From positions 62,001 through 126,000 of the forward strand of contig NZ_JBGCUE010000010.1 in assembly GCF_041102575.1 (NCBI RefSeq): 64,000 nucleotides of DNA. Direction: 5' to 3'. The translations under genes were made by a program, and so were the position numbers. The first letter of the stretch is position 1. Each line of letters opens with the position of its first letter. This stretch comes from Tenuifilum sp. 4138str (GTDB lineage Bacteria; Bacteroidota; Bacteroidia; Bacteroidales; Tenuifilaceae). The notes below the pieces were generated by a model. That model was not told the DNA's origin, did not search any database, and saw only the letters and a list, made by a program, of their open reading frames with translations. Positions 5,262-58,059 of this stretch are shown in pieces.

Positions 5262-5443
5262 TCCTACGAACAACGGAAAACGCTTCCAGCCCCGTAGGGG
5301 CAAATCAACTAAGCCCAGGGTTTTAACCCTGGGTATTGTGGTATTCAAAATTATTGGCGATGCACGCAACACATAATCCAAAGAGCAAGGGTGAACCGTT
5401 GCATCGCAACTGAATGGTATTGCAAAGAACAATTTCAGGAAAC
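5262..5443. repeat. Intergenic repeat element, copy 1 (with extra palindrome)
   Basis: This copy contains the palindrome GCCCCGTAGGGGC, then arms GCGATGCA (5357-5364) and TGCATCGC (5400-5407) separated by exactly 35 nt. Unlike the other two copies it has a perfect CCCAGGGTT/AACCCTGGG palindrome (5314-5333) inserted between the two parts. Short open frames across it match the repeat and have no independent coding support. Confidence 0.65.
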
Positions 5444-7469: not shown

Positions 7470-10322
7470 ATGTTTCAGGATATTGATAAATCGGCCTTAA
7501 CCGATGAGGGTGAAATTGTTGTTGAGGGTGCACGCGTGCATAACCTGCGGAATGTTGATGTTACAATTCCACGGCAAAAGCTGACGGTAATTACTGGCCT
7601 GAGCGGCAGCGGAAAATCATCATTAGCATTTGATACCATATATGCTGAGGGTCAGCGCCGCTACATGGAAACCATGTCGGCCTACGCCCGGCAATTCCTG
7701 GGTACTCTTGAGCGACCTGATGTTGATAAGATTTCAGGGCTTAGCCCTGTGATTTCCATTGAGCAGAAAACCACCAGCCAAAATCCCCGCTCCACTGTGG
7801 GGACAATTACAGAAATCTACGATTTCCTCCGTCTGCTTTACGCCAGAGCGTCAACAGCCTACTCATACCAAACCGGGGAGGAAATGGTTCGTTATACCGA
7901 TGAGCAAATCATTAACCTGATAAACGAAAGGTTTACGGGTAAACGAACCGCAATCCTAGCCCCTGTGGTTCGTGGACGCAAGGGGCACTACAAGGAACTT
8001 TTTGACCAGCTAAGGCGCAAGGGTTACCTCAACGCCCGTATCGATGGGGAAATAACGGAGCTACGACCGGCCATGAAGCTCGACCGCTATAAAACTCACT
8101 ACATTGAACTTCTTGTTGACAAATTCCGTGTAGGCGAGGGCGATTTAAAAAGGTTAAGCCAGTCGGTGGCTACAGCAATGAACATTGGCAAGGGAATCAT
8201 CATGGTGCTTGATATGGATAACGGTGAATACCGTTACTTTAGCCGCAACCTGATGTGTCCTACAACTGGCATATCGTACGATGAGCCTGAGCCATACACA
8301 TTTAGCTTTAACTCTCCCAAAGGGGCATGCACACACTGTAATGGATTGGGTTACATAAACCAAGCCGATATTGAACGAATTATCCCCGACCCACAGCTGA
8401 GCATTAAACGAGGTGGTATTCAACCCTTGGGACCATATAAAAACTCGCTGATATTCTGGCAACTGGAAGCAATTGCCTCAAAGTACGATTTTTCACTTTC
8501 CGATCCCATTGGACAAATCCCTGAAGAGGCACTAAACGTGATTCTTTACGGTTCCGAAGAACAGTTTAAGCTAAAACACCCAAGCATTGGGGTAAACAGC
8601 TCATACTTCCTGAGCTTTGAAGGAGTAATCAGCTACATCCAAAACCATCAAACCAACGATGAGCTGAATGGCAAGGGCGACCGGTGGGCAAACCAGTTCA
8701 TCAAACAGGTAACCTGCCCAACCTGCAAGGGAACAAGGCTGAAAGAAGAATCGCTATGGTTCAAGGTTGATGGCAAAAGCATAGCCGATGTTTCAGCCAT
8801 GGACATTGAAACACTCTGGCATTGGCTTCAGGGTCTTGAGAATCGTCTTGGCAGCAGGCAAAAGGCAATAGCCACCGAAATACTTAAAGAGATCAGGGAG
8901 CGCGTACGCTTTTTGCTCGACGTAGGATTGGGTTACCTTTCGTTAAACCGCGGTTCTTCAACCCTATCGGGTGGCGAGAGCCAACGCATCAGGCTGGCCA
9001 CCCAAATTGGTTCAAAACTGGTTAATGTGCTTTACATACTCGATGAGCCAAGTATTGGGCTTCATCAGCGCGATAACATCAAGCTCATAAACTCGCTTAA
9101 GCAGCTGCGCGATGCAGGCAACTCCGTGATAGTGGTTGAACACGATGAGGAGATGATACGCTCAGCCGATTACGTGGTAGATATTGGCCCACGCGCCGGC
9201 AGGCATGGCGGGAAAATAGTTGCAACAGGCACTCCCTCGGAAATACTGATGTCCAACTCGCTTACCGCTCAGTACCTCAATGGTCAACTTAAAATTCCTA
9301 TTCCTAAAGAGCGGCGCAAGGGTAACGGAAAATTCCTAACCGTAAAGGGAGCACGAGGCAATAACCTGAAAAATATCACCGTGAAATTTCCTTTAGGTAC
9401 ATTTATCTGTGTAACGGGCGTATCGGGTAGCGGTAAATCAACCTTAATAAATGAAACGCTATACCCTGCCCTCAGCCGCCATTTGTACCGTTCATATGCT
9501 CAACCGTTGGAACACGATGGGATAGAAGGAATTGAAAACATTGACAAAGTGATTGATGTTGACCAATCGCCCATTGGACGCACGCCCCGTTCGAACCCAG
9601 CAACATATACTAACGTATTTACGGATATTCGCAAGCTCTTTGAGTTAACCCCCGATGCAAAAATAAGGGGATACAAGGCTGGACGCTTCTCATTCAACGT
9701 TAAGGGCGGACGATGTGAAACCTGTAAGGGCGGTGGCGTTCAGGTAATAGAGATGAATTTCCTCCCCGACGTTTACGTAAAGTGTCCCGACTGTTTTGGA
9801 CGTCGGTATAACCGCGAAACGCTTGAGGTAAAGTACAAAGGTAAAAATATCAGCGAGGTGCTGGACATGACCATTAACCAGGCCGTGGAATTCTTTGACA
9901 GCATACCGCAAATCCATCAGAAGTTAAAAACGCTCCAGGACGTTGGACTGGGCTATATAACATTGGGGCAACAATCCACTACCCTATCAGGGGGTGAAGC
10001 CCAGCGTGTGAAGCTGGCCACAGAATTAGCCAAACGCGATACCGGGAAAACCCTCTACATTCTGGACGAGCCCACTACAGGTTTACACTTTGACGATGTA
10101 CGCATTCTGCTTGAGGTGCTCAACAAACTCGTTGACCGTGGTAACACGGTTATAGTAATTGAGCATAATTTGGATGTAATTAAATCGGCCGACTACATTG
10201 TTGACCTTGGCCCCGAGGGAGGAGCCGCAGGAGGCCAAGTGGTATGCTCTGGCACCCCCGAAGATATTGCAAAATCGGGTTGTGGTTTCACTTCGGAATT
10301 TTTAAAGAAATGTATTATATGA
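7470..10322 (+). CDS. uvrA: Excinuclease ABC subunit A
   Basis: UvrA is the damage-sensing ATPase of nucleotide excision repair and works as a dimer with UvrB. The 950 residues match the family. It shows two ABC ATPase halves: the first P-loop GLSGSGKSS lies at residues 43-51 and the second, GVSGSGKST, near 650; each half has its signature ([14 protein letters not shown] and [14 protein letters not shown]) and Walker B (ILDEPS, ILDEPT). The zinc modules are [17 protein letters not shown] in the first half and CETCKGGG...[10 protein letters not shown] in the second. The stop overlaps the next start as ATGA. Confidence 0.98.
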
Positions 10323-56868: not shown

Positions 56869-56897
56869 TTTGCGAATAAAAAATTTACTTATTTTTG
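56869..56897 (+). promoter_or_regulatory. Promoter for the tRNA region (TTTG, TATTTTTG)
   Basis: TTTG and TATTTTTG are 17 bp apart, close to the Bacteroidota -33/-7 pattern, 82 nt before the first tRNA-like sequence. Confidence 0.5.
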
Positions 56898-56978
56898 CAG
56901 TGCTAAAAAAAATGCATTACCTGCTGAAACATGCTAGAATGCTGCATATTGAAGCAAGTGGCAATTTAAAATTGTGAT

Positions 56979-57039
56979 GGCGAGGTAGTTCAGTTGGTTA
57001 GAGCGTCCCGATTTTATCGGGAAGGTCGCCAGTTCGAAA
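56979..57039 (+). pseudogene. tRNA-like fragment 1 (5' part, altered anticodon arm)
   Basis: It has the acceptor 5' strand GGCGAGG, D-arm and a D-loop identical to the tRNA-Met copy that follows (one change in the D-stem). The anticodon arm is different: TCCCG-ATTTTAT-CGGGA. After TTCGAA the sequence breaks off; the T-stem does not pair and there is no 3' acceptor strand, so it cannot be a working tRNA. Confidence 0.75.
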
Positions 57040-57071
57040 TGTAAACGTTCTTTTTGAGATATTAGTTTGTT

Positions 57072-57145
57072 GGCGAGGTAGCTCAGTTGGTTAGAGCGCA
57101 TGATTCATAATCATGAGGTCGCCGGTTCAATCCCGGCTCTCGCTA
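57072..57145 (+). tRNA. tRNA-Met (CAT)
   Basis: A full 74-nt cloverleaf: acceptor GGCGAGG with TCTCGCT (one G-T pair at position 1), D-stem GCTC/GAGC, anticodon stem CATGA/TCATG with loop TTCATAA (anticodon CAT), variable AGGTC, T-arm GCCGG-TTCAATC-CCGGC, discriminator A then CA. The paired first acceptor base argues for elongator rather than initiator tRNA; a tRNA-Ile modified with lysidine also has CAT and is not excluded. Confidence 0.9.
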
Positions 57146-57153
57146 CAAAGCCG

Positions 57154-57188
57154 AAAAGCCCGTAAACATTGAGTTTGCGGGCTTTTTT
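57154..57188 (+). terminator. Terminator after tRNA-Met
   Basis: AAAAGCCCGTAAAC pairs with GTTTGCGGGCTTTT (one T-G pair) around a 5-nt loop, then T-run. The same terminator recurs unchanged 152 bp downstream. Confidence 0.9.
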
Positions 57189-57223
57189 ATTTTTAACCTT
57201 TACCAATAATAACCTAGTTCCCC

Positions 57224-57297
57224 CTCTGGGTAGCTCAGTTGGTTAGAGCGTCCCGATTTTATCGGGAAGGTCGCCGGTTCAATCCCGGCTCTCGCTA
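57224..57297 (+). pseudogene. tRNA-like sequence 2 (acceptor stem broken, anticodon-loop TTT)
   Basis: D-arm, anticodon arm (TCCCG-ATTTTAT-CGGGA, formal anticodon TTT) and T-arm all fold, and the 3' half is identical to tRNA-Met. The 5' acceptor strand CTCTGGG does not pair with TCTCGCT, so the stem cannot form. The D- to variable-arm part is identical over 40 bp to fragment 1. A tRNA finder might call it tRNA-Lys with a low score; I regard it as a defunct chimaera. Confidence 0.7.
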
Positions 57298-57305
57298 CAA
57301 AGCCG

Positions 57306-57340
57306 AAAAGCCCGTAAACATTGAGTTTGCGGGCTTTTTT
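57306..57340 (+). terminator. Duplicate copy of the tRNA terminator
   Basis: It is identical in stem and loop to the terminator after tRNA-Met, lying within the exact 73-bp repeat. Confidence 0.85.
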
Positions 57341-57380
57341 GTTTTCAACCTTTACCTAAAATAACTCATTTACCCCTTAA

Positions 57381-57440
57381 AGTAACTTAACTGGTTAGCG
57401 CGTCCTGATTTCATCGGGAAGGTCGCCGGCTCAATAGGAG
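57381..57440 (+). pseudogene. tRNA-like fragment 3 (decayed)
   Basis: A more diverged copy of the same unit: the D-arm is degraded (GTAACTTAACTGGTTAGCGC), the anticodon arm reads TCCTG-ATTTCAT-CGGGA, then AGGTCGCCGG. The T-arm is broken and no acceptor strand follows. Confidence 0.6.
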
Positions 57441-57657: not shown

Positions 57658-58059
57658 ATGAAAGGGACAGTAAGTACTAATCAAAAGGTTGAACTTGAGT
57701 ATCAGGTTAACACCTCTCCCGGTGTGCTTTTTAAAAGGTTAAGCACCCCCCATGGTTTATCGGAATGGTTTGCGAACGATGTAAACCTTTCAGGGAATGT
57801 GTTCACTTTCATCTGGGACGGAGATACCCAAAAAGCTGAATTGGTTGATAAAAAGGAAAATAAGTTTGTTAAGTTTCGATGGATTACTGAGCAGAATGAG
57901 GCTGGCCACCATTTTGCTTTTAAACTTACGAAAGATGAACTTACCGGCGAGGTATCGCTTACCGTAATTGAAGAGGTTAATGAGGAGGAGGATATCGATG
58001 AGGTTGTTTCACTCTGGAACTACCAAATTGGTGAACTCAAACGGCTGATTGGGGCATAA
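57658..58059 (+). CDS. START-like domain protein
   Basis: A 133-residue cytosolic protein. VELEYQVNTSPGVLFKRLSTPHGLSEWFANDVNLSGNVFTFIWDGD is the start of a helix-grip fold as in Aha1/START-like (SRPBCC) proteins, and the C-terminal LWNYQIGELKRLIGA is the closing helix. The family (START-like in Bacteroidota) has no known ligand. It stands alone between the tRNA region and the lptF-type gene, whose promoter lies 40 nt after its stop. Confidence 0.75.
   Translation: MKGTVSTNQKVELEYQVNTSPGVLFKRLSTPHGLSEWFANDVNLSGNVFTFIWDGDTQKAELVDKKENKFVKFRWITEQNEAGHHFAFKLTKDELTGEVSLTVIEEVNEEEDIDEVVSLWNYQIGELKRLIGA

Follow-up and report, generated by a model that had tools for sequence, protein, structure and literature searches.

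The tRNA-Met array in the window, the 64,000 nt stretch of Tenuifilum sp. 4138str analyzed here, is probably the degraded remnant of a small mobile element of the Bacteroidota that occupies tRNA genes and carries a GIY-YIG nuclease gene. The window lies on contig C10 of a 3.28-Mb draft genome in 26 contigs. The array holds one intact tRNA-Met gene surrounded by three damaged copies, one 5′ half (starting at 56979) and two 3′ halves (57229 and 57381), just as the preliminary description had read it (Table 1). In all three copies the 17 nt anticodon arm is swapped for a 17 nt palindrome-like segment, TCCCGATTTTATCGGGA in two of them and TCCTGATTTCATCGGGA in the third. The copy at 57381 differs by one substitution in the 5′ arm of the hairpin, its T arm is truncated, and no terminator was seen after it in the window sequence. 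The pattern TCCCGN{3,12}CGGGA occurs three times in the window, twice in the array, against 0.39 expected; one of 100 shuffles reached three.

Table 1. Features of the tRNA-Met array and its upstream region, in positions of the window.
Feature	Position	Strand	Basis
Candidate promoter core TATTTTTGCA, Bacteroidota-type, 5′ of the broken 5′ half	56890-56899	+	read in sequence
5′ acceptor strand and D arm of the broken native tRNA-Met	56979-57005	+	sequence comparison
Hairpin TCCCGATTTTATCGGGA replacing the anticodon arm, 17 nt for 17 nt	57006-57022	+	pattern search
Broken copy, continued: variable loop and first part of the T arm, with the end of homology	57023-57039	+	sequence
Linker from broken half to intact gene; contains a T-rich possible promoter	57040-57071	+	
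Intact tRNA-Met(CAT), read as the restored ("rescue") copy	57072-57146	+	ARAGORN; Rfam 70.3 bits
Intrinsic-terminator-like hairpin and T run; inverted repeat 57154-57186	57147-57188	+	
Displaced copy 1: D-arm piece	57229-57250	+	
Displaced copy 1: hairpin	57251-57267	+	pattern search
Displaced tRNA 3′ half and terminator, identical to 57116-57188	57268-57340	+	
Displaced copy 2: diverged D arm, hairpin TCCTGATTTCATCGGGA (57403-57419), truncated T arm	57381-57440	+	

Of the checks proposed for the array, ARAGORN was run, and Rfam was searched as well. ARAGORN called tRNA-Met as the only tRNA gene of the window. The Rfam tRNA family matched it, and it also matched the displaced copy at 57229-57291 with 43.3 bits, above the gathering score of 29; no family other than tRNA reached its gathering score on the array stretch of the window. 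The acceptor stem is incomplete in the copies, and ARAGORN found in none of them the full acceptor stem and cloverleaf of a functional tRNA. An exact 73 bp duplication had been claimed and is there, base for base, with identity stopping at both edges. The block consists of 57116-57146 of tRNA-Met plus the terminator-like stretch behind it, and lies within 152 bp direct repeats. Between the 5′ fragment and the 57229 copy, 50 of 52 bases agree; the longest identical run, given as 40 bases, is 41 (56990-57030) and includes TCCCGATTTTATCGGGA. Another CAT-anticodon tRNA gene of the genome (L056) is not a copy of the window's tRNA-Met, and neither is the tRNA-Met(cat) at C4:229470, which reads as an initiator from its sequence. 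A second assembly of the species (G013, L116), which bears on the concern that the array could be an assembly artefact, contains this array as well, there with additional copies and an N gap. The array is thus not an artefact of one assembly.

The preliminary description took the 5′ fragment and the 57229 copy for one tRNA, with formal anticodon TTT, split by the tRNA-Met unit. The split stands, and the anticodon does not: the flanks are those of tRNA-Met and the 7 nt "loop" is the interior of the palindrome, so that the split gene is tRNA-Met with a recoded anticodon arm. A tRNA-Lys(TTT) gene split in two was ruled out, as the T arm is also that of tRNA-Met and the loop varies inside the palindrome. 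In G026, a genome of the same family, the flank found directly 5′ of the lone tRNA of G023, a genome of the same genus, now precedes a broken 5′ half, which fits the split-gene view. The window is parallel to G026 in that TATTTTTGCA lies upstream of the broken half. We take TATTTTTGCA to be of the Bacteroidota promoter type, and it is probably the native tRNA-Met promoter; TATTTTTGC is also found upstream of the intact tRNA-Met in three genomes of the same genus (G015, G017, and G018).

A search of the same genome, started from the 5′ copy, found the recoded anticodon arm also at a tRNA-Ala, two tRNA-Pro, and a tRNA-Val. Hairpin-bearing copies lie 3′ of tRNA-Ala(GGC) at a spacing of about 117 bp, and several copies lie 3′ of tRNA-Pro(TGG) at 106 or 223 bp. 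There are six matches at tRNA-Pro(GGG), five of which are TCCCGACTTGGGTCGGGA. At tRNA-Val(TAC) there are three units of 354 bp, with three nuclease ORFs free of stops. In five copies of tRNA-fMet the hairpin sits in the T arm, not in the anticodon arm. With arrays at Ala, Pro, Val, Met, and fMet, a 5 bp stem has thus been recoded to the same letters in unrelated isotypes. The tRNA-Val array is the one of six in this genome in which a recognizable nuclease is kept; tblastn found no trace of the nuclease ORF in the units of the window or in the Ala, Pro, and fMet arrays. Since the nuclease is gone from the units of the window, the link between the window and the nuclease rests on relatives. The same palindrome also stands at the center of a dispersed repeat outside tRNA genes, GTGCTGAG-TCCCGATTTATCGGGA-TAGACTTCG and variants of it (in this genome at L024, L026-L028, L030, L031 position 1501).

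Relatives were searched within the window's class with a pattern made of the hairpin, the tRNA variable loop, and the T arm, and with the reversed pattern as a control. This tRNA-bound pattern matched 9 of 27 genomes of the family and 24 of the 295 class genomes sampled, the own genome being included in both counts, and the reversed pattern matched none of the same genomes. Several of the matches in family and class genomes are no more than 250 nt from a contig end. Upstream copies run from the tRNA 5′ half through the hairpin and the variable loop and then stop. Downstream copies consist of a D-arm piece, the hairpin, and the tRNA 3′ half, often with a terminator. Wherever a locus that we read has both, the intact tRNA lies between them. 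In locus L141 (about 9885-10015), a hairpin-bearing 5′ copy of tRNA-Ala is followed by a second tRNA 5′ half that breaks off in the anticodon stem, which looks like the insertion of a larger element at that point.

In the longer units the intact tRNA and the displaced half are separated by a small GIY-YIG ORF. All three unit ORFs tested contain the GIY-YIG catalytic domain (PF01541, E 5e-18 to 5e-14), and NCBIfam gave no name for any of the three. They are 84-98 aa long, their sole Pfam match covers residues 1-72 or 2-72, and the Pfam scan of these three ORFs found no separate DNA-binding domain beyond it. The order of restored end, endonuclease ORF, and displaced end is found at tRNA-Met in G003, at tRNA-Val in the own genome, and at the loci of named species. 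With one nuclease protein as the query, 42 of 119 class genomes were matched, and ARAGORN found a tRNA in 25 of the 30 loci retrieved. An alignment of 14 ORFs (A1) was used to scan genomes of named species; the scan found at least 516 relatives, of which the 80 best were kept. This sample was ranked against a tRNA-Val-type query, so the isotype shares and the confinement to Bacteroidota seen in it are biased. By title, these best 80 belong to Bacteroidota or its subgroups, except for one bin titled Streptomyces griseus, which we take to be misassigned. An ARAGORN tRNA lies upstream on the same strand within 400 nt in 61 of the 80 (in one, L228, of unclear isotype) and within 1500 nt in 70; a random position in a genome like this one would satisfy the 400 nt rule about 0.26% of the time. 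The hairpin follows the nuclease match within 140 nt in 69 of the 80 (TCCCG/CGGGA in 60, TTCCG/CGGAA in 7, and TCCTG/CGGGA in 2). The other 11 include two at a contig end and several with looser hairpins. Long runs of such genes also occur: G134 has ten tandem GIY-YIG matches at a spacing of about 457 bp (C9, 906046-910386), and four further matches at 379 bp spacing after a tRNA-Asn.

The nucleases cluster by the isotype of their tRNA. Isotype labels change 17 times on the nuclease tree (116 labelled of 139 distinct ORFs), and the lowest values in two sets of 300 shuffles were 36 and 38. The alignment is short (78 columns) and half of the inner branches (68/136) are open, so the tree shows the isotype clustering and not the exact history, and shared host ancestry adds to the clustering, e.g., for tRNA-Arg in Chryseobacterium. 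The median dN/dS is 0.088 and the maximum 0.5 for 73 of the 126 same-label pairs, dS being saturated or at most 0.05 in the other 53. Such low values mean purifying selection, and thus the nuclease has been kept functional. A phage or plasmid vehicle was considered and rejected: tblastn found no plasmid match with one nuclease query, and among phages it gave four weak records for one query and none for the other. The viral collection had matches at four loci, two of them at contig ends, as would be expected for prophage borders beside tRNA genes.

The hairpins after the nuclease genes are strongly conserved in their outer part. Among 53 distinct hairpins the outer pairs are almost invariant, and pair 2 is T-A instead of C-G in seven. 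Complementarity of the inner pairs 6 and 7 stands at 98% and 91%, where shuffling gives means of 72% and 47% (kinship ignored). The palindrome looks to be constrained as pairs, in either DNA or RNA. On the nuclease tree, the pair-2 variant changes four times (shuffled minimum 5, mean 6.8) and the first inner base seven times (shuffled minimum 7, mean 9.7); this clustering is weak because 75 of 82 share one pair-2 letter and 72 of 82 one first-inner-base letter. Of 70 named copies, 10 have a second hairpin within or close to the T arm, as detected by a loose pattern. At tRNA-Ala(TGC) in G003 (L057/L066), the hairpins of adjoining displaced copies are exact reverse complements, as if the core had been inverted.

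The locus syntenic to the window's array, marked by the gene at 57658-58059, is present in 25 of the 27 family genomes (own included). By the hairpin pattern, copies are present at some and absent at others of these 25 loci, i.e., at one fixed site among relatives: 15 have an intact tRNA-Met without a hairpin copy, seven have copies (own included), and three have neither. In G003, of the same family, the intact tRNA is followed by three units of 422 bp, each with a GIY-YIG ORF and a displaced tRNA-Met 3′ half. One kind of terminator follows the tRNA and the first two displaced halves, and AAAAACCCACTGATAATCAGTGGGTTTTTG follows the last. AAAAACCCACTGATAATCAGTGGGTTTTTG differs at two positions from the sequence after the tRNA-Met of G007, an empty locus in the same genus as G003. 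In G026, the intact tRNA behind the broken 5′ half has a different T stem. Thus, the native end was displaced on the 3′ side in G003 and on the 5′ side in G026. The tRNA-Met and the neighboring gene (57658-58059) have the same direction in G000, G013, and G016 and opposite directions in G015, G017, and G018 (window compared with L119-L121), a local inversion or rearrangement.

The flanks of the two ends could be compared at 49 of the 80 named loci (31 gave no comparison). Over the 40 nt that follow each end, the last displaced half and the intact tRNA agree to at least 85% in 32 of the 49, to 65% or less in nine, and to an intermediate degree in eight; the shuffled control has a median of 55%. 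Since the same flank follows both ends in those 32, duplication or homogenization instead of a foreign end is possible there; either recombination homogenizes the arrays, or some of them form by duplication with no foreign end. At 32 of 43 comparable loci the intact and displaced ends are identical in T arm and acceptor, and some of the 11 with differing ends are false T-arm matches. Identity at these 32 means that no protection of the restored tRNA from the enzyme is visible, and self-protection by recoding of the restored tRNA was dropped as a candidate. Also rejected was the native stem difference CCTGC vs. TCTGC in tRNA-Val as a marker of occupancy, with which it did not correlate. Integron attC sites, REP/IS200 hairpins, and CRISPR-like arrays were weighed as ideas only.

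A complete unit consists of a tRNA 3′ half that completes a working tRNA, a terminator, the gene of the single-domain GIY-YIG endonuclease, a D-arm piece (about 6-22 nt), the TCCCG-N-CGGGA hairpin, and the displaced tRNA 3′ half. We propose that the nuclease would cut a tRNA gene that is still unoccupied, within or close to its anticodon arm, and that repair off an occupied copy would insert the unit, i.e., it would home. By bringing the missing half or an entire tRNA, the element would keep the essential gene working as the original half is displaced. The array could later grow or shrink through its direct repeats. The window would then retain the native 5′ half at 56979, the restored tRNA at 57072, and, at 57229 and 57381, two displaced 3′ halves, the nuclease gene having been lost. 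A more far-reaching reading, which we regard as possible and lean slightly against, is that the elements form a natural gene drive of the "cleave and rescue" kind, directed at essential tRNA genes throughout the phylum. Small isotype-specific GIY-YIG nucleases would break the anticodon region of one tRNA gene and would survive because each element brings along a working half, or the whole, of the tRNA it breaks, and the palindrome would be a terminal mark that immunizes the displaced half or serves integration.

The array could instead have come from plain tandem duplication and decay via unequal recombination, the copies being ordinary pseudogenes with no mobile element involved. Unequal recombination, one of the two origins suggested in the preliminary description, fits the tandem repeats: the 152 bp direct repeats contain the exact 73 bp block, the copy number differs between the two assemblies of the species, the terminator is duplicated along with the 3′ half in 32 of the 49 named loci, and the window has no nuclease trace by tblastn. 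Plain duplication very probably explains the later growth of the arrays. However, it leaves unexplained one TCCCG palindrome in different isotypes and genera, as well as the nuclease genes in the units and their isotype clustering, and as an account of the whole it is unlikely. Integration of an element, the other suggested origin, has its counterpart in the GIY-YIG nuclease gene that recurs in the units of relatives, but not in an integrase.

It is very improbable that the copies are attachment-site remnants of integrase-type islands using the anticodon arm, a classical crossover site of integrases. Such use does seem to occur at L140 (about 9950-10260), where an apparent tyrosine recombinase gene, judged by eye, adjoins a tRNA-Val 3′ half that starts in the anticodon stem. 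The units that we read, however, contain no integrase, any long ORF being GIY-YIG; their spacings are just 74-457 bp, and at the 80 named loci the copies are tracked by nuclease genes and not by integrases. Both core arms are altered in the copies, whereas one crossover would give hybrid arms. We give as little credence to the idea that the copies function as structured RNAs or as regulatory mimics of tRNA and are retained because of the hairpin. The hairpin pairs covary (pairs 6 and 7, and T-A on both sides of pair 2 in 7 of 53, kinship ignored), but a DNA palindrome would fit this equally. Folding beats shuffles in 197 of 200 for the 57229 copy and 186 of 200 for the 56979 copy; against this, no copy has a full acceptor stem, their number varies within the species, and they are missing at 15 of the 25 syntenic loci.

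The mobile GIY-YIG element preferred here has several partial parallels. Group I introns with homing endonucleases occupy tRNA anticodon loops and are likewise selfish DNA with an endonuclease at this part of tRNA genes, but here there is no intron (at gathering scores, Rfam found only the tRNA family on the array stretch) and it is an extra copy instead of splicing that restores the tRNA. By sequence, the closest solved structures are the small GIY-YIG proteins of UPF0213 (COG2827), namely BH0048 (1zg2, E 8e-12) and EF2693 (1ywl, E 3e-7), both filed as hypothetical proteins. The nuclease resembles the structure-specific SLX1 more weakly. The Seg proteins have a separate DNA-binding region, and SegB is larger than the proteins of the present units. 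I-TevI has a DNA-binding region separate from its catalytic domain (PMC2988022), and SegB is a free-standing GIY-YIG homing endonuclease of T-even phages encoded beside tRNA genes (PMC13096335, PMC2988022). SegB also cuts within tRNA genes and is needed for tandem amplification of a tRNA segment (PMC13096335). In contrast to the phage-borne SegB, the proteins described here are about 84-98 aa, chromosomal, bound to an isotype, and encoded 5′ of a displaced tRNA half.

The mobile endonuclease ORFs (mORFs) of fungal mitochondria, known for example from Allomyces atp6 and from Glomus atp6, atp9, cox2, and nad3, are similar in plan: a free-standing endonuclease gene lies in a host gene, a substitute 3′ end is fused to that gene, and the native 3′ end is pushed downstream (PMC3630166). 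Here the host is a bacterial chromosomal tRNA gene, the units are smaller and occur in tandem arrays, and there is a palindrome in the displaced end. Divergence between inserted and native ends is seen here only locally (G003/G007, and on the 5′ side G026/G023).

We found no description of such tRNA-bound nuclease arrays among the papers listed in searches of open-access literature, a scope outside which most subscription journals fall. If the proposed origin is true, bacterial chromosomes harbor mobile endonuclease genes of the mitochondrial type, with replacement of gene ends, whose hosts are essential tRNA genes. The proposed origin would also account for odd "pseudo-tRNA" arrays, and perhaps for some contig breaks, in Bacteroidota. 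The units offer an isotype-bound set of nucleases for testing tRNA-gene cleavage and gene drive. Elsewhere in the window, Rfam matched an Acido-Lenti-1 RNA on the minus strand at 5288-5333, with 42.3 bits against a gathering score of 37.
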